This document shows, piece by piece, positions 13,273-28,656 of a DNA stretch of 37,048 nucleotides. Made by a program: the position numbers and the translations under genes. The number at the start of each line of letters is the position of its first letter. Position 1 is the first letter of the stretch. The DNA comes from Phycisphaera sp. (GTDB lineage: Bacteria; Planctomycetota; Phycisphaerae; Phycisphaerales; Zrk34): NCBI GenBank assembly GCA_016125285.1, contig WGMA01000084.1:1-37048 (forward strand), given 5' to 3'. The notes beneath the pieces were generated by a model. It made no database searches, was not told the origin of the DNA, and saw only the letters and a program-made list of their open reading frames with translations.

Positions 13273-13393
13273 GATGCTCGATGCTGGATGGCTCGCTGCG
13301 ATCGCGATGCTGGATCGGCGTGGGTATACGATCGACACATCCAGCATCCAGCATCCAGCATCCAGCATCCAGCATCCAGCATCCAGCATCCAG
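13273..13393. repeat. inverted heptad array (CATCCAG)8 in the hisC-nudF divergent gap
   Basis: Eight perfect tandem copies of CATCCAG fill 13338-13393, followed by a degenerate TATCCGC. Upstream, the complementary words occur as GATGCTC-GATGCTG-GATGG (13273-13290) and GATGCTG-GAT (13306-13315), so the region can fold on itself. The array lies between the two divergent promoters and is the largest part of the 239-nt gap. Frames open across it only because a 7-bp repeat cycles through all frames; they are not genes. Confidence 0.92.
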
Positions 13394-13412
13394 TATCCGC
13401 CGCCCCCGGAAC

Positions 13413-13447: not shown

Positions 13448-13969
13448 ATGAATACCGAATCTAACGAACGCCGCGTGCTCACCAGCGAAAAGTTCGCCGT
13501 CGACCTCGTCCCCGTGACGCTCAACGACGGCCGCGTCGTCGACAAGCACCGCATCACCCACCCCGGCGCGGTGATCATCCTGCCCGTGCTCGACGACGGC
13601 CGCGTGGTGATGATCCGCAACTTCCGCTACTCGGTGGGCCGTGAGCTGTGGGAACTGCCGGCCGGGACGCTCGAGGTCGGCGAAGACCCCGCGCTGTGCG
13701 CCGGGCGCGAGCTGATCGAGGAGGCGGGCTACGAGGCGTCGAGCATCGAGCCGATCAGCGCGTTCTTCACGATGCCCGGCCTGTGCACCGAGCGGATGCA
13801 CGCGTACGTCGCGCGCGGCCTGACGCACGTCGGCCAGGCGCTGGAGGAGAACGAACACATCGAGGTGGAGATCGTCACGATGGACGACGCGCTGGCGATG
13901 ATCCGCGACGGACGCATCGAGGACGGCAAGACGATCGCGACGCTGCTGATGCACCACGTGTACGGCTGA
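13448..13969 (+). CDS. NUDIX hydrolase, ADP-ribose pyrophosphatase-like
   Basis: This 173-aa cytoplasmic hydrolase splits a nucleoside diphosphate linked to another moiety. The full Nudix box G-x5-E-x7-RELIEEAGY spans residues 73-95 (starts GTLEVGED) and supplies the metal-binding glutamates. The preceding ELPAG and the pattern VVMIRNFRYSVGRELWELPAG match the ADP-ribose pyrophosphatase (NudF) group, and FFTMPGLCTERMHAYVA is the typical region after the box. The substrate is inferred from similarity only. The start at 13448 follows a promoter-like TATCAT by 7 nt; there is no Shine-Dalgarno site. A pair of palindromic repeats starts 7 nt after the stop. Confidence 0.9.
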   Translation: MNTESNERRVLTSEKFAVDLVPVTLNDGRVVDKHRITHPGAVIILPVLDDGRVVMIRNFRYSVGRELWELPAGTLEVGEDPALCAGRELIEEAGYEASSIEPISAFFTMPGLCTERMHAYVARGLTHVGQALEENEHIEVEIVTMDDALAMIRDGRIEDGKTIATLLMHHVYG

Positions 13970-14147: not shown

Positions 14148-15122
14148 ATGGGAATGCAGGACCGAGACTGGTACCGCGAGGACGATCCGCGGCGCACGAC
14201 GGCGGGCATGGGCAGCCCCGGCGATGCGCACGGCGAGCTCGGCGTGCGCCTGCGCGGCTGGTCCGTCACGACGTGGCTGCTGGTGATCAACATCGCGGTA
14301 TTCGTGATCGACGCCGTGCTGCTTGGAGCAGGCGTGGGTCACAACATCACGTACAGATTTCCGATGGACGGCAAGGTGCATGAGTTGCACGATGCAATCG
14401 GGGTGCTCGACTATTGGGGCTACTTCTCGATCGACACGCTGAGGCAGGGGCAGGTCTGGCGCGTGCTGACGTTCCAGTTCCTGCACGCCAACGTGATGCA
14501 CATCCTGTTCAACATGATCGGCCTGTTCTTCTTCGGGCCGATGATCGAGTACTACCTCGGCTCGAAGCGGTTCCTGGCGTTCTACCTGCTTTGCGGGATG
14601 GCGGGGGCGGTGGCGTACACGGGGCTGTGGTCGGCCGGCGTGCTGGTGCACTCGTCGGCGACCCACCTGGTCGGCGCGTCGGCGGGGATCTTCGGCATCC
14701 TGATCGGCGGGGCGGTGGTCGCGCCGAACTCACGCGTGCTGATCTACGGCATCATCCCGATGAAGCTGCGCACGCTGGCATGGCTGCTGGTCGGCGTTGG
14801 GGCGTACACGGTGCTGACGCGCGGCGGCAACGCCGGCGGCGAGGCGGGGCACCTCGGCGGGGCGCTGCTGGGGTTCGTGCTGATCAACCGGCCGCGCTGG
14901 CTCGACTGGGCGGACCGCATCGGGTTCGGTGGACGGACTGGACCGCGTGCGCCGCGCCGGGCGTGGGCGACCAAGAGCGAAAAGCCGCCCAAACCCTCGC
15001 GCAGCGAGGCGGAGATCGACCGCATCCTCGAGAAGGTCAGCAAGCAGGGCCTGGCGAGCCTGACCGACGACGAGAAACGCGCGCTGGCCGAGGACACCGA
15101 GCGGAAACGCGCAGGACGCTGA
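14148..15122 (+). CDS. rhomboid family intramembrane serine protease
   Basis: This 324-aa polytopic inner-membrane protease cleaves transmembrane segments of substrate proteins. The catalytic dyad is visible: Ser178 in LVGASAGIFG and His235 in GEAGHLGGALLG. The conserved HANVMHILFNMIG (residues 113-125, His and Asn of the oxyanion region) precedes them. About six helices lie between residues 40 and 248. A soluble C-terminal part carries SEAEIDRILEKVSKQGLASL (about 286-315), similar to the DUF6576 tail of some rhomboids. The next gene, a site-2-type protease, ends in almost the same tail. The start at 14148 (MGMQDRDWYREDD) follows TACACT by 9 nt without a Shine-Dalgarno site; ATG 14154 is an alternative. 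Confidence 0.92.
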   Translation: MGMQDRDWYREDDPRRTTAGMGSPGDAHGELGVRLRGWSVTTWLLVINIAVFVIDAVLLGAGVGHNITYRFPMDGKVHELHDAIGVLDYWGYFSIDTLRQGQVWRVLTFQFLHANVMHILFNMIGLFFFGPMIEYYLGSKRFLAFYLLCGMAGAVAYTGLWSAGVLVHSSATHLVGASAGIFGILIGGAVVAPNSRVLIYGIIPMKLRTLAWLLVGVGAYTVLTRGGNAGGEAGHLGGALLGFVLINRPRWLDWADRIGFGGRTGPRAPRRAWATKSEKPPKPSRSEAEIDRILEKVSKQGLASLTDDEKRALAEDTERKRAGR

Positions 15123-15156
15123 CGCGGCGACGTGCGTGTGAATGACCGGGGCAAGG

Positions 15157-15162
15157 TAAAAT
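15157..15162 (+). promoter_or_regulatory. -10-like element of the M50 protease gene
   Basis: TAAAAT lies 9 nt before the ATG at 15172, in the 49-nt gap after the rhomboid gene. No clear -35 was found. If used, it would give a leaderless message for the second protease independent of the first. Confidence 0.35.
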
Positions 15163-15171
15163 CAGGCAGAC

Positions 15172-16251
15172 ATGGGCTACGACGACCGACATTACGCCGA
15201 CGGCTTCAACGACGGCCCGGACGGCGGCAGCTTCTTCGGCAAGCTGTCGCGGCTGCTGATGTGGTCGTTCCCGGTCGGCACGTACTTCGACATCGCGGTG
15301 CGCGTGAATTTCTGGTTCATCCCGCTGTTCGTCGGGCGGCTGATGTACGACGTGGAGAAGGGCGGGATGGATGTCCTTCCGTGGTCGTTCCGTTGGATGG
15401 CGGTGATGTTCTTCAGCGTGCTGCTGCACGAGTTTGGGCACTGCTTCGCGTGCCGCGCGGTGGGCGGACAGGCGAACGACATCCTGATGTGGCCGCTGGG
15501 TGGGCTGGCGATGTGTCTGCCGCCGCGGCGACCCTGGCCGGAGTTTGTGACGGTGGTGTGGGGCCCGCTGGTGACGCTTATCCTGGCGTTGGGATCGTTC
15601 GGGATATTGGTGATGGTGACGGGCGAGTGGCTGCCGGTGTCACTGAATCCGCTGACGCCGTGGCGCTCGCGTCCCGAGGCGGGGATCAGCGGGCTCGTCG
15701 AGGACACGTTCCTCATCAACTACATCCTGCTGCTGTTCAACCTTGCGTTGCTGTTCTACCCGTTCGACGGCGGACGCCTGGTGCAGGTCGCGCTGTGGAA
15801 GAAGCTCGGGTACTTCAAGAGCATGGTCGTGGCGACGGGTGTGGGCATGGGCGGGGCGATCCTCATCGGCATGCTCGGGTTGTCGTTCGGCGAACTGATG
15901 ATCGTGCTCGTCGCGGTGTTCGGGTTCATCACCTGCTACCAGCAGCGCAAGCAGCTGAAGATGGCGGGGCCCGGCGCGTTCATGGACGACCACGGCGAGT
16001 CGTGGAAGACGGGCAAGATGACGTTCGGCGACTACCACGTCGACGACGAAGACAGCGAAGGGTTCTTCGAGCGGCGACGGCGGCTCAAGGCCGAGGCGCG
16101 GCGGGCGAAGCAGCGTGCGGCGCAGGAGGCGCTCGACGCGGAGATCGACCGCATCCTCGAAAAGGTCAGCGAGCAGGGCATGCAGAGCCTGTCGGCGAAA
16201 GAGAAGCGGACGCTGCAGACGAAGACGGAGCAGGAGCGGAAGGCGAAATGA
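15172..16251 (+). CDS. site-2 protease-like M50 family metalloprotease
   Basis: This 359-aa inner-membrane zinc protease has the metal-binding motif HEFGH at residues 86-90 (FSVLLHEFGHCFACR) and the third ligand Asp199 in LFYPFDGGRL, the M50 equivalent of NxxPxPxLDGG. Such enzymes cut membrane-embedded helices during regulated intramembrane proteolysis. There is no PDZ domain, so it resembles the compact SpoIVFB-like or group III forms rather than RseP. Helices flank the HEFGH segment and continue to about residue 255. A soluble tail of about 100 residues ends in AEIDRILEKVSEQGMQSL (from residue 323), matching the tail of the adjacent rhomboid. Two intramembrane proteases of different chemistry with one shared tail suggest a common partner or substrate. 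The start at 15172 follows TAAAAT by 9 nt. Confidence 0.92.
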   Translation: MGYDDRHYADGFNDGPDGGSFFGKLSRLLMWSFPVGTYFDIAVRVNFWFIPLFVGRLMYDVEKGGMDVLPWSFRWMAVMFFSVLLHEFGHCFACRAVGGQANDILMWPLGGLAMCLPPRRPWPEFVTVVWGPLVTLILALGSFGILVMVTGEWLPVSLNPLTPWRSRPEAGISGLVEDTFLINYILLLFNLALLFYPFDGGRLVQVALWKKLGYFKSMVVATGVGMGGAILIGMLGLSFGELMIVLVAVFGFITCYQQRKQLKMAGPGAFMDDHGESWKTGKMTFGDYHVDDEDSEGFFERRRRLKAEARRAKQRAAQEALDAEIDRILEKVSEQGMQSLSAKEKRTLQTKTEQERKAK

Positions 16252-16346: not shown

Positions 16347-17519
16347 ATGCCCGCACTGACCTTTGAGATCGAGCACGAGGACGCGTCCGGCGAGAGCCGC
16401 GCGCGGGTGGGGCGTGTCACGACGCCGCACGGCTCGTTCGACACCCCGGCGTTCATGCCCGTGGGCACCAAGGCGAGCGTCAAGGGCCTGCTGCCGGAGC
16501 TCGTGGCGGGCACGGGCGCGCAGATCATCCTCAACAACACCTATCACCTGACACTTCGGCCGGGCACGGACCGGATCGCACGGCTCGGCGGCGTGCACGG
16601 CCTGATGAACTGGCACGGGCCGATCCTGACGGACTCCGGCGGGTTCCAGGTGTTCAGCCTCGCCGACGTTCGCAAGATCACCGACGACGGCGTGACGTTC
16701 CGCAGCGAGGTGGACGGCCAGTACATCGAGCTGTCGCCCGAGGCGTCGATCAAGGCGCAGAACGAGATCGGCGCGGACATCATCATGGCGTTCGACGACT
16801 GCCCGCCGGCGTCGGTCGAGGACGTGTCGCCGGACAACGTCACGTCGGGTCGGCACGCGGTGTCGGCCGACGCGTACGCCGAGCGGAACGCCGTGGCGAT
16901 GGAGCGGACGCTGCGGTGGCTGGGGCGTTGCGTCGAGGCGCACGCCCGGCCGGACGATCAGGCGTTGTTCGGCATCGTGCAGGGCGGCGTGGACCTGGAG
17001 ATGCGAGCGGCGTGCGCCAAGGCGGTCACGGCGCACGACCTGCCGGGGTACGCGATCGGCGGGGTGGCGGTGGGCGAGGGGCCGGAGCAGATGATGCGGG
17101 TGGTGGATCACACGGCTCCGCTGCTGCCTCGGGACAAGCCGCGTTACCTGATGGGGGTGGGCTACGAGCGGGACATCGTGGGGGCGGTTCGTGCGGGGAT
17201 CGACATGTTCGACTGCGTGCTGCCGACGCGTAACGGGCGGAATGCCAATGCGTTTACGCGGACGGGTCAGATCCGGCTGAAGAACGCCCGTTTCGCGGAG
17301 GATCCCGAGCCGATCGAGCCGGGGTGCGACTGCGTGGCGTGTGCGGGCTATAGTCGGGCTTACCTGCGGCATCTGTTCCTGGCGGACGAGATGCTGGGGC
17401 CGATCCTGGTGAGCCTGCACAACCTCCGACATTTTCAGCGGTTGATGCTGGACATCCGGGCTGCGATCCGGCATGATGACTGGTCTTTGCTCCGGTCGGA
17501 ATGGCCGGTGCTGGGTTGA
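16347..17519 (+). CDS. tgt: queuine tRNA-ribosyltransferase (tRNA-guanine transglycosylase)
   Basis: This 390-aa cytoplasmic enzyme swaps guanine 34 of GUN-anticodon tRNAs for preQ1 in queuosine synthesis. The TIM-barrel active site is recognisable: Asp96 in ILTDSGGFQVFSL, MAFDDCPP (usually MAFDECTP), the substrate loop LFGIVQGG and AIGGVAVGEG, and the nucleophile region GIDMFDCVLPTRNGRNA (285-301). The zinc site is complete: Cys328, Cys330, Cys333 (CDCVAC) and His359 (SLHNL). The length is slightly above the usual 370-380 because of residues between 155 and 175. Placement before yajC and secDF is a widely conserved order. The start at 16347 fits the protein N-terminus; TATGAT 8 nt upstream suggests a leaderless message. 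Confidence 0.97.
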   Translation: MPALTFEIEHEDASGESRARVGRVTTPHGSFDTPAFMPVGTKASVKGLLPELVAGTGAQIILNNTYHLTLRPGTDRIARLGGVHGLMNWHGPILTDSGGFQVFSLADVRKITDDGVTFRSEVDGQYIELSPEASIKAQNEIGADIIMAFDDCPPASVEDVSPDNVTSGRHAVSADAYAERNAVAMERTLRWLGRCVEAHARPDDQALFGIVQGGVDLEMRAACAKAVTAHDLPGYAIGGVAVGEGPEQMMRVVDHTAPLLPRDKPRYLMGVGYERDIVGAVRAGIDMFDCVLPTRNGRNANAFTRTGQIRLKNARFAEDPEPIEPGCDCVACAGYSRAYLRHLFLADEMLGPILVSLHNLRHFQRLMLDIRAAIRHDDWSLLRSEWPVLG

Positions 17520-17629: not shown

Positions 17630-18154
17630 ATGAGCTGGTACGCACAGATGACGTTGGCGCAGAACGACGCGCCGCCACCCCCGTCCACGCAGGTCGCCCC
17701 GGCGCCCGGCGGCGCGGCCCCGGCCGCGGGTGGGGACGCCACGCAGTCGACGACCGGCGCCCAGGGATCGCCGGACGGCAAGGCCGGCGCTTCACGCGAC
17801 CAGACCTTCCCGCCGATGATGCTGGTGATGGTGCTGATGGTCGTGGTGTTCTGGGTGCTGATCATCGTGCCTCAGCGGCGCGAGAAGAAGAAGCAGTCGG
17901 ACCTGATGAGCTCGCTGAAGAAGGGCGACAAGATCCAGACGATCGGCGGCATCCGCGGCACGCTCATCGAGGTGCGCGGCGACGAGGTCGTCCTGAAGAT
18001 CGACGAAAGCAACAACACCCGCATGCGCATGTCGCTGTCGGCGATCCAGGCGAAGATCGGCCCGGAGAAGGACGACAAGAACGCGGGCAAGGACGACGGC
18101 AGCAAGGACGAGAAGAAAGAAGAAAAGAAGGACACCGCCAAGGCGGCGACCTGA
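17630..18154 (+). CDS. yajC: preprotein translocase subunit YajC
   Basis: This 174-aa small membrane subunit joins SecD and SecF to assist the SecYEG channel. It has one transmembrane helix (about residues 61-81, MMLVMVLMVVVFWVLIIVPQ) followed directly by the family signature QRREKKKQSDLMSSLKKGD and the soluble domain KIQTIGGIRGTLIEVRGDEVVLKI. The Ala/Pro/Gly-rich N-terminal extension (about 55 residues) and the Lys/Asp/Glu-rich C-terminal tail (from about 145) are longer than in E. coli YajC (110 aa). The gene lies between tgt and secDF as in many bacteria. Its start has GGAG 11 nt upstream, a weak ribosome site. Confidence 0.93.
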   Translation: MSWYAQMTLAQNDAPPPPSTQVAPAPGGAAPAAGGDATQSTTGAQGSPDGKAGASRDQTFPPMMLVMVLMVVVFWVLIIVPQRREKKKQSDLMSSLKKGDKIQTIGGIRGTLIEVRGDEVVLKIDESNNTRMRMSLSAIQAKIGPEKDDKNAGKDDGSKDEKKEEKKDTAKAAT

Positions 18155-18220: not shown

Positions 18221-21200
18221 GTGCATGCCCTCATGACCCCAGAAGAAGTCCAAGCGTACGTGTATGGGTTCGCGATCGCCGGCGTGATCGCGGGCGTCAT
18301 CGCCATGATCCTGTTCTCCACCGAGAAGCGGTTGGCGGGCAAGGCGGCGGTCGTCGCGGCGGTCCTGCTGCTTTGCGGTTCGCCGCTGTTCCAGGGCCTC
18401 AAGAAGGGCCCGGACCTCGCCGGCGGCTCGACCCTCCTTTACGAGGTCACGATCCCTCAGGGGTCGAACACCGAAGAGATCATGCGGCAGACCATCCAGG
18501 TCCTGCAGAACCGCGTGGACCCCAACGGCGTGATGAACCTCACGTGGCGCGTCGAGGCGGGCAACCGCTTCGAGGTGCTGATGCCGCTGGCCGGCGACGA
18601 GGTCAAGGATCGCCGCGAGACCTTCAAGTCGCTGCAGGATTCGATCACGAAGGGCAACCTGCGCAAGCGTGACGTCATCGACGCGATGAAGCTCACGGAC
18701 CCCGAGCGCGCGACGCACATCGAGGCCCTCGCCGCGGGCGTGCCCGGGCGCGCCGAGCTGCTGAACAAGGCGGCCAAGGCGTACGAGAAGCTCGACGCGG
18801 CGCGGACGGTCTATAAGAACCTCAAGCCCGACACCCCCGAGTACATCGACGCCGCCGGCGACGTCGCCCGCGCCGGCCAGGTCTTCGACGACCTCGTCGA
18901 CCAGATCATCGACACGAACCTCGACGCGTCGACGATCACGCGCGTGCTGACGATGTCGACCAAGGACAAGAACGACGCGGACAGGAAGCCGATCGCCGAC
19001 TCCAGCCCCCGCGCCGAGGCGCTCAAGCAGCTCAAGACGCGTCACCCCAACCGCGCCGATCAGGTCGACCAGCTCGTCGCGGCCTACGACGCGTACATCA
19101 AGGTCAAGGGCCCGCTCGACGACCCCAAGGACCTCGAGCGTCTGATCAAGGGCGCCGGCGTGCTGGAGTTCCGCATCGCGGTGTCGAACCAGGAAGCGGC
19201 CGACGTGGCCAACCTGCGTGACCAGCTCCGCGAGCGCGGACCGCTCGGCCAGGACCGCGGCGCCTCGATGAAGTGGTACCCGATCGACAGCCTCGAGCAG
19301 TGGGTCGACCGGCCCAGCGAGCTGGCCAAGGCCCAGAAGGACCCGATCTCGTTCCTCGCCGGCCGCCGCCTGATCGCCGCGACCTACGACGACAAGATCT
19401 ACGTGCTGCTGTGGGACCGCGAGGGCTACGGCATCCGCAAGCAGGACCCGCGGTGGCAGCTGACGCGTGCCTACCCGACGCAGGATCAACGCGGCTTCCC
19501 GGCGGTCGGCTTCCAGCTCAACGAGGCCGGCGGCTCGATCATGGGATCGATGACCGATCACCACAAGGGTCGCCAGATGGCGATCGTGCTCGACGGACGC
19601 GTCTACTCGGCGCCGACGATCCAGAGCCAGATCCGCGACAGCGGCATCATCACCGGCGGGCAGGGCGGCTTCGGCAAGACCGAGCTCGACTACCTCATCC
19701 GCACGCTCAACGCCGGCTCGCTGTCGGCGAACCTCGTCGGCCCGATCTCCGTCCGCAACATGAACCCGTCGCTCGGCGCCGAGAACCTCAGGCGCGGCAT
19801 GCAGTCCACGCTCTTCGCGCTGATCGCCGTCGCCCTGTTCATGATGGTCTACTACTTCTTCGCCGGCTTCATCGCCGACGTCGCCCTCCTGGCGAACCTC
19901 GTGCTGATCCTCGGTCTGATGTCCGGCCTGCAGGCGACGTTCACGCTGCCCGGCATCGCCGGCATCGTGCTGACGATCGGCATGTGCGTCGACGCGAACG
20001 TGCTGGTGTTCGAGCGCATCCGCGAAGAACTCAACCGCGGCGTCGACATGAAGGCCGCGCTGCGCCTGGGCTACGAGAAGGCGATGTCGTCGATCATGGA
20101 CGGCAACCTGACGAACCTGATCGTCTGCTTCGTGCTGGGCTACACCGCCACGGCCGACGTCAAGGGCTTCGCCGTGACGCTGGGCATCGGCATCTGCGCC
20201 ACGCTGTTCGCCTCGCTGTTCATGACCCGCGTGATCTTCGACATCATGTACAAGTACATGGGCGCCGGCGAGATGAAGATGCTGCCGATGACGGTCAAGG
20301 CCGTCGAGCGGGCGCTGCATCCGAAGTTCGACTGGATCGGCCGGCGGCACGTGTTCTTCGGCATCAGCGGCGCGTTGATCGCGCTGAGCCTCGTGCTCAT
20401 CTTCGTCCGCGGCGGCGACATCCTCGACATCGAGTTCCGCGCCGGCACGGAGGTCACCTTCAGCCTCAAGGACGGCGACAAGCTGACCCGCAAGGAGGCC
20501 GAGGAACGCATCGACAAGGCCGGCGGCTTCGATACGTACAACGTCGTGCTCGTCGGCGACCTCGACGACAAGTTCCGCGCCTCGGAGTTCTCGGTCGTCA
20601 CGACCGAGTCTGACCGCGACCGCGTCTCCGAGAAGCTGCACGCCGCGTTCAAGGACGTGCTGTCGATCCAGCCCGCGCTGACGTTCGACGGCTCCGACCT
20701 GCCCGAGCTCAACCCCTTCGACGAGGGCGGCCGCCGGCAGTCCAAGCCCGCGCCCGTCTACCCGATCACCAAGGCCAAGCTCGACGAGGTCGTGCCCGGC
20801 CTGCGGGACAGCGGCGCCGAGGCGCCCGACTACCTCGGCGGCGTGGCGATCTACCTCAACCACATCGACCCGCCCATGAGCATCGACGTCCTGCGTGACC
20901 GCATCAAGTCGATGCGCCTGCGTCCGCCGTACAGCGACGAGGTGCCGTTCCGCACGTTCGACGTGTTCCCCGTGGAGCGGGCCGCGAATCAGCCCGACGC
21001 CGTCTCCTCCGCCGTCGTCGTCGTGCGCGACCCCGACGTGAGCTACTTCGAGTCGACGCCGCAGTGGGAGGCCGCCCTGGCCTCGATCGAGTGGGACCTC
21101 GTCCGCGACGCGCTGACGCAGGAGACCAGCTTCTCCAAGGTCTCCAGCTACGACCCCTCCGTCGCCGTCACCATGACCGAGCACGCCATCGAGGCCCTGT

Positions 21201-21760
21201 TCTTCTCGATCATCGCGATCGTCATCTACATCCGATTCCGATTCGGCAGCCTCCGCCACGGCCTGGCCGCCATCATCGCCCTCGTCCACGACGTGATCAT
21301 CACGCTCGGCCTCCTCGCCGTCAGCGCCTACGTCTACGACATCATCGGCGCCAACTTCCTGCTCATCGAGCCGTTCAAGATCAACATGCCGATCATCGCG
21401 GCCCTGCTGACGATCGTCGGCTACTCGCTCAACGATACGATCATCATCTTCGACCGCATCCGTGAGAACCGCGGCAAGCTCGCCGTGGCCTCCCCGGCGA
21501 TCATGAACGACTCGATCAACCAGACCATCAGCCGAACCCTCATCACGTCGGGCACCACGTTCCTCGCCATCGTCGTGATGTACTTCGACGGCGGCCCCGG
21601 CATCCACGGCTTCGCGTTCGCCATGACCGTCGGCATCATCGTCGGCACCTACTCGTCGATCGGCGTCGCGGCGCCGCTGCTGCTGATCGGCACGAAGTAC
21701 GGCCGCCTGTCCGCCTCGTCGCCGGCTTCCGATAAGGCCGCCCCCGAGCCGAGCCGCTGA
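18221..21760 (+). CDS. secDF: protein translocase SecDF fusion
   Basis: This 1179-aa inner-membrane protein fuses SecD and SecF, which use the proton gradient to pull preproteins through SecYEG on the outer side. The SecD half carries its helices with GIVLTIGMCVDANVLVFERI at about residues 583-602. The SecF half begins near WIGRRHVFFGISGALIALSL and ends TFLAIVVMYFDGGPGIHGFA, with GYSLNDTIIIFDRIRENR as its equivalent motif. The protein is longer than usual fusions (about 750-850 aa) because of two insertions in the periplasmic domains: a charged helical stretch at about residues 140-295 in SecD P1 and an insert at about 820-950 in the SecF periplasmic part. The GTG at 18221 is given; ATG 18233 (MTPEEVQAYVYGF) is equally possible, and neither has a Shine-Dalgarno site. 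A strong terminator follows. Confidence 0.95.
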   Translation: MHALMTPEEVQAYVYGFAIAGVIAGVIAMILFSTEKRLAGKAAVVAAVLLLCGSPLFQGLKKGPDLAGGSTLLYEVTIPQGSNTEEIMRQTIQVLQNRVDPNGVMNLTWRVEAGNRFEVLMPLAGDEVKDRRETFKSLQDSITKGNLRKRDVIDAMKLTDPERATHIEALAAGVPGRAELLNKAAKAYEKLDAARTVYKNLKPDTPEYIDAAGDVARAGQVFDDLVDQIIDTNLDASTITRVLTMSTKDKNDADRKPIADSSPRAEALKQLKTRHPNRADQVDQLVAAYDAYIKVKGPLDDPKDLERLIKGAGVLEFRIAVSNQEAADVANLRDQLRERGPLGQDRGASMKWYPIDSLEQWVDRPSELAKAQKDPISFLAGRRLIAATYDDKIYVLLWDREGYGIRKQDPRWQLTRAYPTQDQRGFPAVGFQLNEAGGSIMGSMTDHHKGRQMAIVLDGRVYSAPTIQSQIRDSGIITGGQGGFGKTELDYLIRTLNAGSLSANLVGPISVRNMNPSLGAENLRRGMQSTLFALIAVALFMMVYYFFAGFIADVALLANLVLILGLMSGLQATFTLPGIAGIVLTIGMCVDANVLVFERIREELNRGVDMKAALRLGYEKAMSSIMDGNLTNLIVCFVLGYTATADVKGFAVTLGIGICATLFASLFMTRVIFDIMYKYMGAGEMKMLPMTVKAVERALHPKFDWIGRRHVFFGISGALIALSLVLIFVRGGDILDIEFRAGTEVTFSLKDGDKLTRKEAEERIDKAGGFDTYNVVLVGDLDDKFRASEFSVVTTESDRDRVSEKLHAAFKDVLSIQPALTFDGSDLPELNPFDEGGRRQSKPAPVYPITKAKLDEVVPGLRDSGAEAPDYLGGVAIYLNHIDPPMSIDVLRDRIKSMRLRPPYSDEVPFRTFDVFPVERAANQPDAVSSAVVVVRDPDVSYFESTPQWEAALASIEWDLVRDALTQETSFSKVSSYDPSVAVTMTEHAIEALFFSIIAIVIYIRFRFGSLRHGLAAIIALVHDVIITLGLLAVSAYVYDIIGANFLLIEPFKINMPIIAALLTIVGYSLNDTIIIFDRIRENRGKLAVASPAIMNDSINQTISRTLITSGTTFLAIVVMYFDGGPGIHGFAFAMTVGIIVGTYSSIGVAAPLLLIGTKYGRLSASSPASDKAAPEPSR

Positions 21761-24456: not shown

Positions 24457-27400
24457 ATGTGTCGGACCATTCGATTGTTCAATCGCCTTCGCTCGCGTCG
24501 CGTCCGTCGTCGCCGTGAGCGACGTCGCGATGCGCATCGCCTCACCCCCGCGCTTGCCGTCATCGAACTCCTCGAGCAGCGCCTGCTGATGTCCGCGGTG
24601 ACGGCCGTCTCGCTGTCGCCCGAGCCGAACTCGCAGACCGCCGACCGGTACGCGACGGTGGTCGCAACTTTCGATCAGACGCTTAACGCCGCGACCGTCA
24701 CCGAAGACACCTTTGTCGTGCAGACGCTGCGCACCGCCAGACTGCTCGACGCCAACGGCGGCGTGTTCACGCTGACGACTGAAGACGCCACGGTCACGCT
24801 ACAGTCCGGTTCCGACTGGCGCGCCGGCGAGATCGTCCAGGTCACCATCACCGGCGGTATCGAGAACCCCGGCGGAGAGGGCGCGACGCCTTACGTGTAC
24901 CAGTTCCGCGTCACCGCCGAGAACGGCACCGGCGTATTCAACGACAGCGGACAGACGCTCGGAAACGCCGCGACCAGTCGCGTCGAGCTCGGCGACTTCA
25001 ACGGCGACAGCTACTTCGACATCTTCGAGACCACCGACGTCGGCAACCGCGTGTGGCTCAACGCCAACGACGGCTCCGGTGTGTTCACCGACACCATGCA
25101 GTCGCTCGGTTCCGCCGCGAGCACCGGCGTGGCGCTCGGCGATCTCGACGGCGACGGCGACGTCGACGCGTTCGTCGTCAACGGCGGAACGGCCGGCGAT
25201 ACCGTCTGGCTCAATGATGGCTCCGGCGTGTTCACCGACAGCATGCAGAGCCTCGGCGCGAGCGACAGCCGTGACGTGGCTCTGGGCGACCTCGACGGCG
25301 ACGGCGATCTCGACGCGCTGGTGACCTATGTCGGCGCATCGGATCGCATCTGGCTCAACGACGGCTCGGGCGTGTTCACCGCGACGGCGCAGAAGCTAGG
25401 TGGCTCCGTCGAGAGCGTCGGCGTGGCGATGGGCGACCTCGACGGCGACGGCGACCTCGACGCCTTCGTCGCGAAAGCCGACGGCGGCGACCCGGTCTGG
25501 CTCAACGACGGCTCCGGCACGTTCGCCTCGAACGGCCAGTCGCTGACGATGAACGCCAGCCGCGACGTCGAGATCGGCGACCTGGACGGCGACGGCGACC
25601 TCGATGTCGTCGTCGCCACCGACGCCGGCCTGATCCTATGGACCAACGACGGCTCCGCCCAGTTCACCCAGCACACGCAGACCGTCACCGACGCGATCAG
25701 CGCCCTGGCCCTCGGCGACCTCGACGCCGACGGCGACCTCGACCTCTTCGTCAGTTTCACCGATGACAAGCGCGTCCTGCTTAACGACGGCACTGGCGCG
25801 TTCTCCGCGAGCGGCGCGATGCTCGGCGGTACGGCCAGCGCGTCGATCACGCTCGGTGACATCGACCTCGACGGCGACATCGACGCGGTGACCGCCAATT
25901 CCGGCGCGGCCAATCGCGTCTGGGTCAACTTCACGAACACCGCGCCCGACACCATCGGCGATGCCTACGAAGTCGATGAGGACAACACGCTGACCGTCAC
26001 CGACGCGCTCGGCGTCCTGGCCAATGACAGCGACGTCGACGACGGTCAGACCCTCACCGCCGTTCTGCAGCAGGACGTGTCGCACGGCACGCTCACGCTC
26101 AACGCCGACGGCTCGTTCACCTACACGCCCGACGCGAACTACCACGGCCCCGACTCTTTCATCTACGTCGCCAACGACGGCACGGACGATTCGAACGGCG
26201 CGGTCGTCACGCTCACGATTCACTCGGTGAACGATCCGGTGGTGGCGGTGGACGACGGCGTCTTCGTCGTGCCGTACGGGGCGCCGCTGGCGTTCAACGG
26301 CCCGCTGCTTCTTCAGAACGACACCGACGCCGACATCGACGCGGTGCTGGCGGTGACCGCGGCGGACAACGCCGTGGGCGGGCAGCTCGACGTGCGGCTT
26401 GGGTCGGAGGGGCGGTTCAACGAAGCGGTCCCGGGCGACGCGAACCGGTTCGGTCGCTCGGTCGCGGTCGACGGCGACTGGGCGATGGTCGGCGCGCCGG
26501 ACTACGCGAGCAACGGTGGCGCGGTAACGGTGTTCCACCGCGACGAGGCCGGGTGGGCCTACCACTCGACACTCGTCGGCAGCGGCGCGTTCCCCGTCGA
26601 CTTCGGCCACGCGATCGATCTCGACGGCGACCGCGCGATCATCAGCGATTACCGCGAAGGTCCCGGCGGCGCTCGGATCGGAGCGGCCTACGTCTTTGAA
26701 CTTGTCGGCGGGTCCTGGGTCGAGCAGGTGCGACTCGCGCCGGCCGGCAACGACCTCGACTTCTTTGGTCTGGGCGTGTCGATCGACGGCGACTGGGTCG
26801 CGGTTGGCGCATCGGAGGTTGACCTGCCCTCAAAGGTCGACGCCGGCGCGGTCTACATGTATCACTTCGACGGCGATCACTGGGGCGAGTCCGCGCAGCT
26901 GACGCCGGACGATTCGGCCGCCGGCCAGCTGTTCGGCAACGTCGTTGAACTACGTGGCGACGACCTGCTCGTCGGGGCGTACCACGATTCCGGCGCGGCC
27001 AACGACGCGGGCGCCGTATACGCCTTCACCCGGCAGCAGGACACCTGGACCCAATCGCAGAAGCTGGTGGCCAGCGACGCCCACTCCGGTCATTCATTCG
27101 GCTACCGGCTCGATGCCCAGGGCGACCGTCTCGTGGTTGGCACGGTGCTCGACAATAGCGCGGGCGCCCGCTCCGGCGCCGTCTACGTCTTCGATCGAAC
27201 AGATGGCGTCTGGGCCGAGTCCGTCAAGCTTGTCGGCTCCGACGTCTCGACGAACTCCTACTTCGGCTTCGGCGTCGCCCTCGTCGGTAATCGTCTCTTC
27301 GTCGCAGCGCCGCAGGGCGATCCCAACAACTTCAGCCAGACCAACACCGTCGGCGCCGGACGAGTCTACGAGTTCGCGTACGATGGTGCGTGGGTCGAGG

Positions 27401-28656
27401 TACGCATCATCACCGCCGACGACGCCGCGTTTAACGCCAAGTTCGGCTCCGACATCGCTGCGGACGCCGACACGCTGATCGTTGGTTCGCTGGAGGCCAC
27501 CATCGACTCCGACGTCACAGGCGCTGCCTATATCTATTCGCCCAGCATCAAGGTCACGTTCACGCCGGACATGGGCTACTACGGGCCTGCGTCGTTCCGG
27601 TACACCGCCTCCGACGGCCTGACAACCGACACCGCGACCGTCAGTCTCCGCGTCAACGCGCCACCCGCGGCGACCGATGACGACTACGCCGTCGACCAGC
27701 AGACACCGCTCGTCGTCGCCTCCGGGCAGGGCGTGCTGGCCAACGACGACCCCGTCGACGGCGACGACATCACCGCCGTGCTCGTCGGCGACGTCGCCCA
27801 CGGCACACTCGCGCTCAACGCCGACGGCTCGTTCACCTACACGCCCGATGACGGGTTCTACGGCGCCGACTCGTTCACCTACCAAGCGACCGACGGCGTC
27901 GACAACTCCGGTGTCGTCACGGTGAACATCGACGTCCGCATCAACCTCGACATCGACGGCGTCGGCACGGTCCAGCCGCTGACCGATGGCATCCTTGTCA
28001 TCCGCTCGCTCGCGGGTTTCACAGGCGACGTGCTCATCACCGGCGCCCTCGGCGCGGGCGCGACGCGCACCACCGGCGAATCGGTCGCCGCGTTCCTCGT
28101 CGTCGCACGCGACCTGTTCCTCGATGTCGACGGCGACGGCCTGCTCCAGCCGCTGACCGACGGCATCCTGCTGCTCCGCTACCTCGCGGGCTTCACCGGC
28201 GACGTCCTCGTCACCGGCGCGACCGGCGCCGGCGCGACGCGCACCACCGGCCAGCAGATCGTCGACTTCCTCGACCCGTTCCAGCCCCCGGTCGCGCCGC
28301 CGCCGCCGGTGTTCCCCGAGACCGTCACGACCGTTGATCAGACCCCGCCCGCGCCGCAGCCGCTGCTCGTTGAGTCAAGCGACACGACCCCGGCCGCCAG
28401 CCCCGCGCCCGCGCCGCCGACCGTCGATCTGCTGTCCAACGCCCGCGCGATCGCCGCCGCCAACGACGCGCTCCACCGCCCGGCGCCCGCCGCGTTCGAC
28501 TTCGACTTCACGCCGCTCACCCCGACCGCGCTCGCCGCCGTTACCAACCTCGGTGTCATCAGGGCCCGCCTGCGCCTCATCGACCTGCTCGCCGCGCCCG
28601 CCGGGCCCGCCGCTCCGCTCCGCATCGATCCGCCTGCCGAGGGACCGTCGCCATGA
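24457..28656 (+). CDS. giant secreted protein with two beta-propellers and cadherin-like domains
   Basis: This 1399-aa protein carries a basic N-terminus and the planctomycete surface motif ELLEQRLLMSA (residues 37-47). Then come an Ig-like domain (about 48-155), a VCBS/FG-GAP propeller with seven Ca-binding GDLDGDGDLD-type loops (about 155-490), a cadherin-like domain (about 493-593), a second domain of that type (about 594-1066) that seems to be split by a seven-blade FG-GAP propeller (about 663-1028, repeats such as AGAVYMYHFDG), a third cadherin-like domain (about 1066-1163), two DVDGDG..QPLTDGILLLRYLAGF repeats resembling dockerin Ca loops (about 1163-1273) and a Pro/Ala-rich end. It is probably a calcium-stabilised adhesin or matrix protein; no enzyme domain is seen. 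I chose the ATG at 24457 (GGGGG upstream); ATG 24427 is possible. Confidence 0.88.
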   Translation: MCRTIRLFNRLRSRRVRRRRERRRDAHRLTPALAVIELLEQRLLMSAVTAVSLSPEPNSQTADRYATVVATFDQTLNAATVTEDTFVVQTLRTARLLDANGGVFTLTTEDATVTLQSGSDWRAGEIVQVTITGGIENPGGEGATPYVYQFRVTAENGTGVFNDSGQTLGNAATSRVELGDFNGDSYFDIFETTDVGNRVWLNANDGSGVFTDTMQSLGSAASTGVALGDLDGDGDVDAFVVNGGTAGDTVWLNDGSGVFTDSMQSLGASDSRDVALGDLDGDGDLDALVTYVGASDRIWLNDGSGVFTATAQKLGGSVESVGVAMGDLDGDGDLDAFVAKADGGDPVWLNDGSGTFASNGQSLTMNASRDVEIGDLDGDGDLDVVVATDAGLILWTNDGSAQFTQHTQTVTDAISALALGDLDADGDLDLFVSFTDDKRVLLNDGTGAFSASGAMLGGTASASITLGDIDLDGDIDAVTANSGAANRVWVNFTNTAPDTIGDAYEVDEDNTLTVTDALGVLANDSDVDDGQTLTAVLQQDVSHGTLTLNADGSFTYTPDANYHGPDSFIYVANDGTDDSNGAVVTLTIHSVNDPVVAVDDGVFVVPYGAPLAFNGPLLLQNDTDADIDAVLAVTAADNAVGGQLDVRLGSEGRFNEAVPGDANRFGRSVAVDGDWAMVGAPDYASNGGAVTVFHRDEAGWAYHSTLVGSGAFPVDFGHAIDLDGDRAIISDYREGPGGARIGAAYVFELVGGSWVEQVRLAPAGNDLDFFGLGVSIDGDWVAVGASEVDLPSKVDAGAVYMYHFDGDHWGESAQLTPDDSAAGQLFGNVVELRGDDLLVGAYHDSGAANDAGAVYAFTRQQDTWTQSQKLVASDAHSGHSFGYRLDAQGDRLVVGTVLDNSAGARSGAVYVFDRTDGVWAESVKLVGSDVSTNSYFGFGVALVGNRLFVAAPQGDPNNFSQTNTVGAGRVYEFAYDGAWVEVRIITADDAAFNAKFGSDIAADADTLIVGSLEATIDSDVTGAAYIYSPSIKVTFTPDMGYYGPASFRYTASDGLTTDTATVSLRVNAPPAATDDDYAVDQQTPLVVASGQGVLANDDPVDGDDITAVLVGDVAHGTLALNADGSFTYTPDDGFYGADSFTYQATDGVDNSGVVTVNIDVRINLDIDGVGTVQPLTDGILVIRSLAGFTGDVLITGALGAGATRTTGESVAAFLVVARDLFLDVDGDGLLQPLTDGILLLRYLAGFTGDVLVTGATGAGATRTTGQQIVDFLDPFQPPVAPPPPVFPETVTTVDQTPPAPQPLLVESSDTTPAASPAPAPPTVDLLSNARAIAAANDALHRPAPAAFDFDFTPLTPTALAAVTNLGVIRARLRLIDLLAAPAGPAAPLRIDPPAEGPSP

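Follow-up and report, generated by a model that had tools for sequence, protein, structure and literature searches.

The closest described relatives of the proteins treated here are the rhomboid proteases GlpG and YqgP, and the site-2 proteases (S2Ps) MjS2P and SpoIVFB. The Shigella rhomboids GlpG and Rhom7 remove orphan membrane proteins or subunits (PMC7232013), and the Bacillus subtilis rhomboid YqgP acts as an adaptor of FtsH, independently of its own activity (PMC7231995). Among the S2Ps, group III is defined by a CBS domain (PMC10202637). How, then, are bacterial rhomboids and S2Ps directed to their sites of action? This is largely an open question. Here, we analyse a stretch of 37,048 nucleotides from Phycisphaera sp. 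(Planctomycetota, order Phycisphaerales; contig WGMA01000084.1 of assembly GCA_016125285.1), called the window below, in which a rhomboid gene and an S2P gene of the M50 family adjoin and both encode the same C-terminal tail, DUF6576 (PF20216). The families are known and DUF6576 is already in Pfam, as an entry of unknown function, while their shared architecture is new. Among the proteins of Planctomycetota that we read, nearly all that bear the tail are intramembrane proteases.

An earlier note on this DNA had described two adjacent proteases of unrelated folds and chemistry with the same tail, and had likened that tail to DUF6576. Both descriptions are borne out, the genes lying at the positions it gave (Table 1), on the + strand and 49 bases apart. 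The first protein matches Pfam Rhomboid (3.4e-24, 86.1 bits against a cut-off of 22.6) and DUF6576 (1.4e-8, 35.2 bits against 27.3), and the second matches Peptidase_M50 (7.5e-11) and DUF6576 (1e-9, 38.8 bits against 27.3). The AlphaFold2 model of the rhomboid, built on an alignment of 65 rows that includes two untailed neighbours (loci L145 and L148), has a mean predicted local distance difference test score (pLDDT) of 86.9, and its best matches in PDB by Foldseek are GlpG structures. With a Ser/His pair in a GlpG-like fold, as modelled, the protein is a rhomboid; it is not a rhombosortase by the NCBIfam profile TIGR03902, on which it scores 41 bits against a cut-off of 84. As a working model, YqgP with its adaptor role for FtsH comes nearest, but its extra part is an N-terminal cytosolic domain (PMC7231995), whereas the window rhomboid carries a C-terminal hairpin that it has in common with the M50 protein.

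The model of the M50 protein, likewise on 65 rows, has a mean pLDDT of 88.6, and its best PDB matches are MjS2P (E 3.0e-10) and SpoIVFB (E 7.9e-6). By its HExxH motif, distal Asp and modelled S2P fold, it is a site-2 protease; the Asp, D199, is presumed to be the third metal ligand, as in the family. Neither PDZ, which marks group I, nor CBS, which marks group III, is among its Pfam matches up to E 1. It resembles MjS2P and SpoIVFB in fold, HExxH, distal Asp and the lack of a PDZ match, but differs from them in having no CBS match and in ending in DUF6576.

Over 36 aligned positions, the two window tails are 58% identical. Among 54 aligned tails from both kinds of host, a Leu, a Gly, a Leu, a Glu and a Leu are invariant in all 54, and the mean net charge is +2.2 on rhomboids and +1.8 on M50 proteins. 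In the models, the successive pLDDT block values of the rhomboid are 80, 97, 97, 94 and 85 from residue 281, and those of the M50 protein are 92-97 from residue 301. The tail is thus predicted to be a helix-turn-helix hairpin, and, if the window proteins share the topology established for GlpG and SpoIVFB, it should lie on the cytoplasmic side of the membrane. No solved structure of the tail was found in PDB, where the only sequence match up to E 10 was 2n2t (OR303; E 0.97 over 17 positions). A pattern like G..(I/L)T.EE, seen by eye in the tail, prompted a comparison with SHOCT (PF09851), which is also short and mainly C-terminal (PMC3581485). Kinship was rejected, since hhalign gave a probability below 1% against 12 SHOCT rows; SHOCT is moreover joined to numerous other domains (PMC3581485), whereas DUF6576 occurs here nearly only with intramembrane proteases.

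How specific is the tail for such proteases? In a six-frame search (E 0.001) of the genome to which the window belongs (6.09 Mb, 97% complete), DUF6576 was found at exactly two places, the rhomboid and the M50 gene. Rhomboid was matched four times in the same genome, and M50 in four reading frames on four contigs; read from stop to stop, the frames of the remaining three rhomboids have unrelated sequence, and no DUF6576, at their ends. Since other rhomboid and M50 proteins of this genome are untailed, the tail singles out one of each. DUF6576 was matched in 195 of the 201 genomes of the window's order, and in 268 of the 294 genomes drawn from the phylum. Because the genome listings give best matches only, two sets of hosts were read: set 1 comprises the loci of the best-scoring matches, and set 2, which guards against that bias, comprises every match of 57 genomes (55 picked for many copies, weak scores or kinship, and two of the family labelled f24). 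The sets overlap, and their counts are not additive.

Hosts were classified by profiles of our own and compared with Pfam. In set 1, the 183 distinct tailed open reading frames (ORFs) were assigned to 127 rhomboids and 53 M50 proteins, with three left over (L048 and L052, cut at the locus edge, and L031, at whose locus a different frame encodes an M50 protein), and the tail ends no more than 10 residues from the end of the frame in all 183. Among 110 of these rows scanned with Pfam, 81 matched Rhomboid and 27 matched M50; among a further 73, the numbers were 46 and 22. For the 102 matches of set 2, the profiles alone gave 59 rhomboids, 29 M50 proteins, 12 unassigned and two without a tail; after single checks these became 60 rhomboids, 31 M50 proteins, six M domains of the signal recognition particle (SRP), one unresolved match (L174, an 82-residue frame at the end of its stretch) and four chance matches below the cut-off, the line between real and chance being set by host and position besides score, so that some matches counted as real are also below the Pfam cut-off. 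The Pfam scan of set 2 covered 91 of the 102 rows, omitting the six M-domain rows, L230 and the four chance matches, and it found Rhomboid in 59 and M50 in 30; one of the 60 rhomboids was missed by Pfam Rhomboid at E 0.001. L230, counted among the 31 M50 proteins, has no other Pfam family, scores weakly (16.4 bits) on our M50 profile and shows an FPMDG motif by eye; it is likely a degenerate M50 protein. The four matches rejected as real tails are L257 and L258, inside ChaN-PDZ proteins at 16 bits, and L206 and L256, at 22-23 bits and missed by our tail profile. The hairpins of the latter two resemble, by eye, what we take to be the N-terminus of SpoIIM-type membrane proteins. A trypsin-like peptidase domain was matched as well in two of the 91 tailed rows, possibly through a fused neighbouring frame.

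The earlier note had asked whether the tail marks only intramembrane proteases, and the answer from set 2 is nearly so, the exception being the SRP M-domain host in f24. All seven genomes of this family hold two SRP_SPB genes, one a strong and one a weaker match. The strong one, with a frame of 505-560 residues, is by its size the canonical Ffh. The weaker one has frames of 197-316 residues or stands at the end of long stop-to-stop frames, and in six of the seven genomes Pfam finds DUF6576 behind it (L181, L187, L196, L207, L201 and L263), above the cut-off in four of the six in the genome search and in two of the six in the protein scan. It is a free-standing signal-sequence-binding domain that bears the protease tail beside a canonical Ffh, and in four of the seven genomes both genes lie on one contig, less than 3 kb apart. 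This exception hints at the handling of signal sequences or transmembrane segments during synthesis. A literature search found no paper on SRP M domains in Gemmata.

Outside Planctomycetota, DUF6576 was found in one of 14 control genomes (Bacteroides ihuae). Plasmid records searched with two tail queries, up to E 10, gave 3 and 6 matching records, mostly from Bacteroidota. Proteins from Bacteroides, Prevotella and Gemmatirosa (Gemmatimonadota) each match Pfam Rhomboid and DUF6576 above the cut-off, with one DUF6576 match per record; a Parabacteroides match is annotated as a rhomboid, and further matches came from Phocaeicola and Anabaena (E 8). The Bacteroides record (L260) has two tandem rhomboid genes, the second of which is tailed, followed by an endonuclease/exonuclease/phosphatase gene.

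The conservation of the pair was read from 86 genomes of the order, that is, the places listed in the order search plus the genomes of the window's family, with two-match genomes preferred in f2 and f4 (families are designated here by numbers, f1 being that of the window and f3 its sister family). Of the 86 loci, 65 have a single tailed rhomboid gene together with a single tailed M50 gene (34/36 in f2, 25/25 in f4, 4/15 in f3, 2/9 in f1 and 0/1 in f94), with no recognised gene between them in 64 of the 65; at the exception, L354, a tgt frame is listed between. By a hand count, two DUF6576 matches per genome occur in 56/67 genomes of f2, 33/67 of f4, 4/51 of f3, 3/9 of f1 and 7/7 of f93 and f94, and a single tail in 44 of 51 genomes of f3 and 32 of 67 of f4. 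In the 11 single-tail loci of f3 that were laid out, the tail is on the rhomboid. Two matches do not always mean a pair, since both tails of genome G198 are on rhomboids, and a rhomboid alone was found at the f94 locus that was read. In two genomes of the window's family, at L143 (G198) and L145 (G302), a second, tailed rhomboid occupies the M50 slot, and the first rhomboid of L145 is untailed. Outside the order, no rhomboid and M50 genes side by side were met in the loci read (stretches of 3-8 kb), while several genomes carry a tailed rhomboid and a tailed M50 gene at separate places; tailed M50 genes without an adjacent tailed rhomboid exist. As to conservation across Planctomycetota, which the earlier note had proposed to test, the pair is kept in much of the window's order, but adjacency was not seen beyond it. 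Neither of the outcomes that the earlier note had named as speaking against its reading, a tail common on many unrelated membrane proteins or a pair that is not conserved, was observed.

The order of the two genes is rhomboid-M50 in f1 and f3 and M50-rhomboid in f2 and f4. Families f1 to f4 share the surrounding block NUDIX-[pair]-tgt-yajC-secDF, even where the rhomboid stands alone (f3); NUDIX, tgt, yajC and secDF were the neighbours tested for, and regulators were sought among the window's own genes only. Separate origins of the two gene orders were considered and rejected. In the tree of all 67 M50 rows, a starred branch splits f2 and f4 from the rest, and the order's M50 proteins are not resolved as one group; after the seven longest rows were dropped, the 36 rows of the order form one side of a branch with support 93, not starred. 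The two orders more probably go back to one origin, with the genes changing places, than to two. The M50 trees were thinned to every second f2 and f4 protein, and the rhomboid tree to every fourth f2 and f4 rhomboid and every third rhomboid of the phylum. The rhomboids of the order group together save for two very long branches, L342 lying outside and the untailed L364 of the window's own genome lying inside. In three f1 genomes (L145, L148 and L210), the rhomboid is untailed and its neighbour, an M50 protein or a second rhomboid, carries the tail; since two of the three are close in the tree, about two losses of the tail are indicated.

Tails of the same genome are slightly more alike than expected, with a mean identity of 0.445 against 0.425 in family-wise shuffles. 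Shuffles as high occurred in 4 of 5000 trials, in 35 of 5000 after correction for guanine-plus-cytosine (GC) content, and in 17 of 5000 when a reduced alphabet was combined with GC correction; by family, the likeness is present in f4 (6 of 5000). Both a shared partner and rare gene conversion would agree with such likeness, which is weak evidence of the one or the other. In addition, some tailed hosts lack active-site residues in the alignment. Eight of the 65 aligned M50 rows (L019, L081, L155, L303, L305, L316, L322 and L326) are without one or more of the metal-binding or catalytic residues H86, E87, H90 and D199, and these eight are, judging from sequence, likely pseudoproteases. Six of the 65 rhomboid rows are without S178 or H235, the untailed L145 and L148 not being among them. 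The local sequence shows clear residue loss in several degenerate rows (in L019, QQ replaces HE), while others are possibly misaligned.

What could such a tail do? Its invariant residues, its C-terminal position on two unrelated folds and its use alone or in pairs argue for a docking module whose partner lies outside the pair. We give an even chance to the reading that the tail docks both proteases, and some dead versions of them, at one shared cytoplasmic partner, likeliest for quality control near the Sec translocon. The DUF6576 hairpin would bind this putative partner, which would hold the rhomboid and the M50 protein at one site; the two proteases would cut within or beside the membrane, clearing failed, orphan or leftover transmembrane segments near the translocon, and the cut product would pass to the partner, for which the ribosome, a translocon subunit and AAA proteases (FtsH, for instance) are candidates. 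Quality control at the translocon is preferred because every host deals with transmembrane or signal segments, because yajC and secDF are adjacent and because rhomboid quality control is published. We infer that a partner exists and what it may be, as well as the quality-control role and the cytoplasmic side of the tail. Several points weigh against this. The SRP M-domain host is no protease; 26 of the 294 phylum genomes have no DUF6576 match, although some of those genomes are incomplete; the sample outside Planctomycetota consists of three proteins, all rhomboids, so breadth is hardly tested; the sec neighbourhood was met in no order but the window's, and genes may lie side by side without having a function in common; and the tails of one genome resemble each other only slightly more than shuffled ones do, an excess not seen in f2, where 704 of 5000 shuffles were as high.

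Other explanations have to be weighed against docking at a shared partner. The hairpin might be an oligomerisation element, the tails pairing mutually or with themselves and so joining the rhomboid to the M50 protein for substrate hand-over. The adjacent, co-oriented genes in 64 of the 65 loci of the order with both, and the small within-genome likeness, would fit this, but with a single tail in so many genomes of f3 and f4, pairing between the tails of a rhomboid and an M50 protein cannot be the general role; self-association may still occur, but we think the explanation as a whole unlikely. Quite unlikely, too, is that the tail has no specific partner and serves to stabilise its host or to anchor it at the membrane surface, having spread from gene to gene by recombination. 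It is indeed short, net positive on average and strictly C-terminal; however, its five invariant residues point to a specific fold or surface, no other protein of the window's own genome carries it, and tailed M50 genes occur away from any tailed rhomboid.

The earlier note had further concluded from the shared tail that the proteases have a common partner, perhaps with sequential cleavage in a signalling pathway. The common partner is still the most economical reading, but sequential cleavage and signalling gained no specific support. Regulated intramembrane proteolysis, with the rhomboid as site-1 and the M50 protein as site-2 protease on one signalling substrate, would fit two protease classes that adjoin and are conserved within the order, and cleavage at site 1 and then site 2 is the common bacterial scheme (PMC10202637). 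Against it, the tails are also present on degenerate proteases and on the SRP M-domain protein, single-tail genomes are common (above all in f3), and the M50 protein is of the PDZ-less MjS2P/SpoIVFB type, and SpoIVFB carries out its processing without depending on a site-1 protease (PMC10202637). We regard this explanation as very unlikely.

The features of the locus are collected in Table 1. The start of the NUDIX gene was chosen by us as the first ATG past a repeat array, in which the 7-base unit CATCCAG is present in 8.7 copies (13338-13398) and which ends 50 bases 5' of this likely ATG. One large ORF of the window has long imperfect tandem repeats at 25065-25604 and 27945-28273, with units of 147/291 and 174 bases. 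No Rfam family was matched in the window, and a search for relatives among named genomes returned a single locus, 100% identical to the query.

Table 1. Features of the protease pair and of its conserved neighbours in the window (counts refer to aligned rows)
Feature	Coordinates	Strand	Basis
NUDIX hydrolase, upstream neighbour kept in the order	13448..13969	+	Pfam NUDIX 6.9e-18, sequence, layout
Rhomboid serine protease, 324 residues, C-terminal DUF6576	14148..15122	+	ATG start 14148, stop 15122
Predicted catalytic Ser codon, S178 in GASAG	14679..14681	+	S in 61/65 rhomboids
Predicted catalytic His codon, H235	14850..14852	+	H in 60/65 rhomboids
Rhomboid tail, predicted helices at residues 285-300 and 307-323	15000..15116	+	AlphaFold2; DUF6576 match 15003-15092
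Site-2 protease (M50), 359 residues, C-terminal DUF6576	15172..16251	+	Pfam, AlphaFold2 model, PDB matches
HEFGH zinc motif (H86, E87, H90)	15427..15441	+	H86 in 60/65, E87 in 63/65, H90 in 58/65
Presumed third metal ligand D199 (FDGGR)	15766..15768	+	D in 61/65
M50 tail, predicted long helix 298-335, turn, helix 342-358	16063..16245	+	AlphaFold2; DUF6576 match 16135-16218
tgt (tRNA-guanine transglycosylase), downstream neighbour kept in the order	16347..17519	+	TIGR00430 above cut-off, layout
yajC, Sec translocon accessory subunit	17630..18154	+	TIGR00739 above cut-off, layout
secDF fusion, Sec translocon subunits	18221..21760	+	TIGR01129 and TIGR00966 above cut-off, layout

No account of DUF6576, or of a tail common to a rhomboid and an S2P, was found in the literature searched, which leaves out most subscription journals; the near-restriction of DUF6576 to proteases and its M-domain host were not found in print. 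Papers on rhomboid proteases and Planctomycetes dealt with streptomycete rhomboids and with rhombosortase, and their accessible parts describe no shared tail. The short cytoplasmic tails of the eukaryotic rhomboid relatives RHBDL4 and Derlins recruit p97, a degradation machine, and invite comparison with the DUF6576 tail. A wider and more tentative idea, which we consider rather doubtful, is that DUF6576 is a docking tag that gathers unrelated handlers of hydrophobic segments (rhomboids, S2Ps, their dead relatives and, in one family, an SRP M-domain protein) on one cytoplasmic hub. If this were true, a hub at the Sec translocon or the ribosome exit would be an undescribed assembly for the triage of membrane proteins, with a logic like that of p97 recruitment in endoplasmic-reticulum-associated degradation. 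As the module is common to two unrelated intramembrane protease folds across most of the phylum genomes sampled, any binding partner of the tail is a candidate for a regulator common to both.

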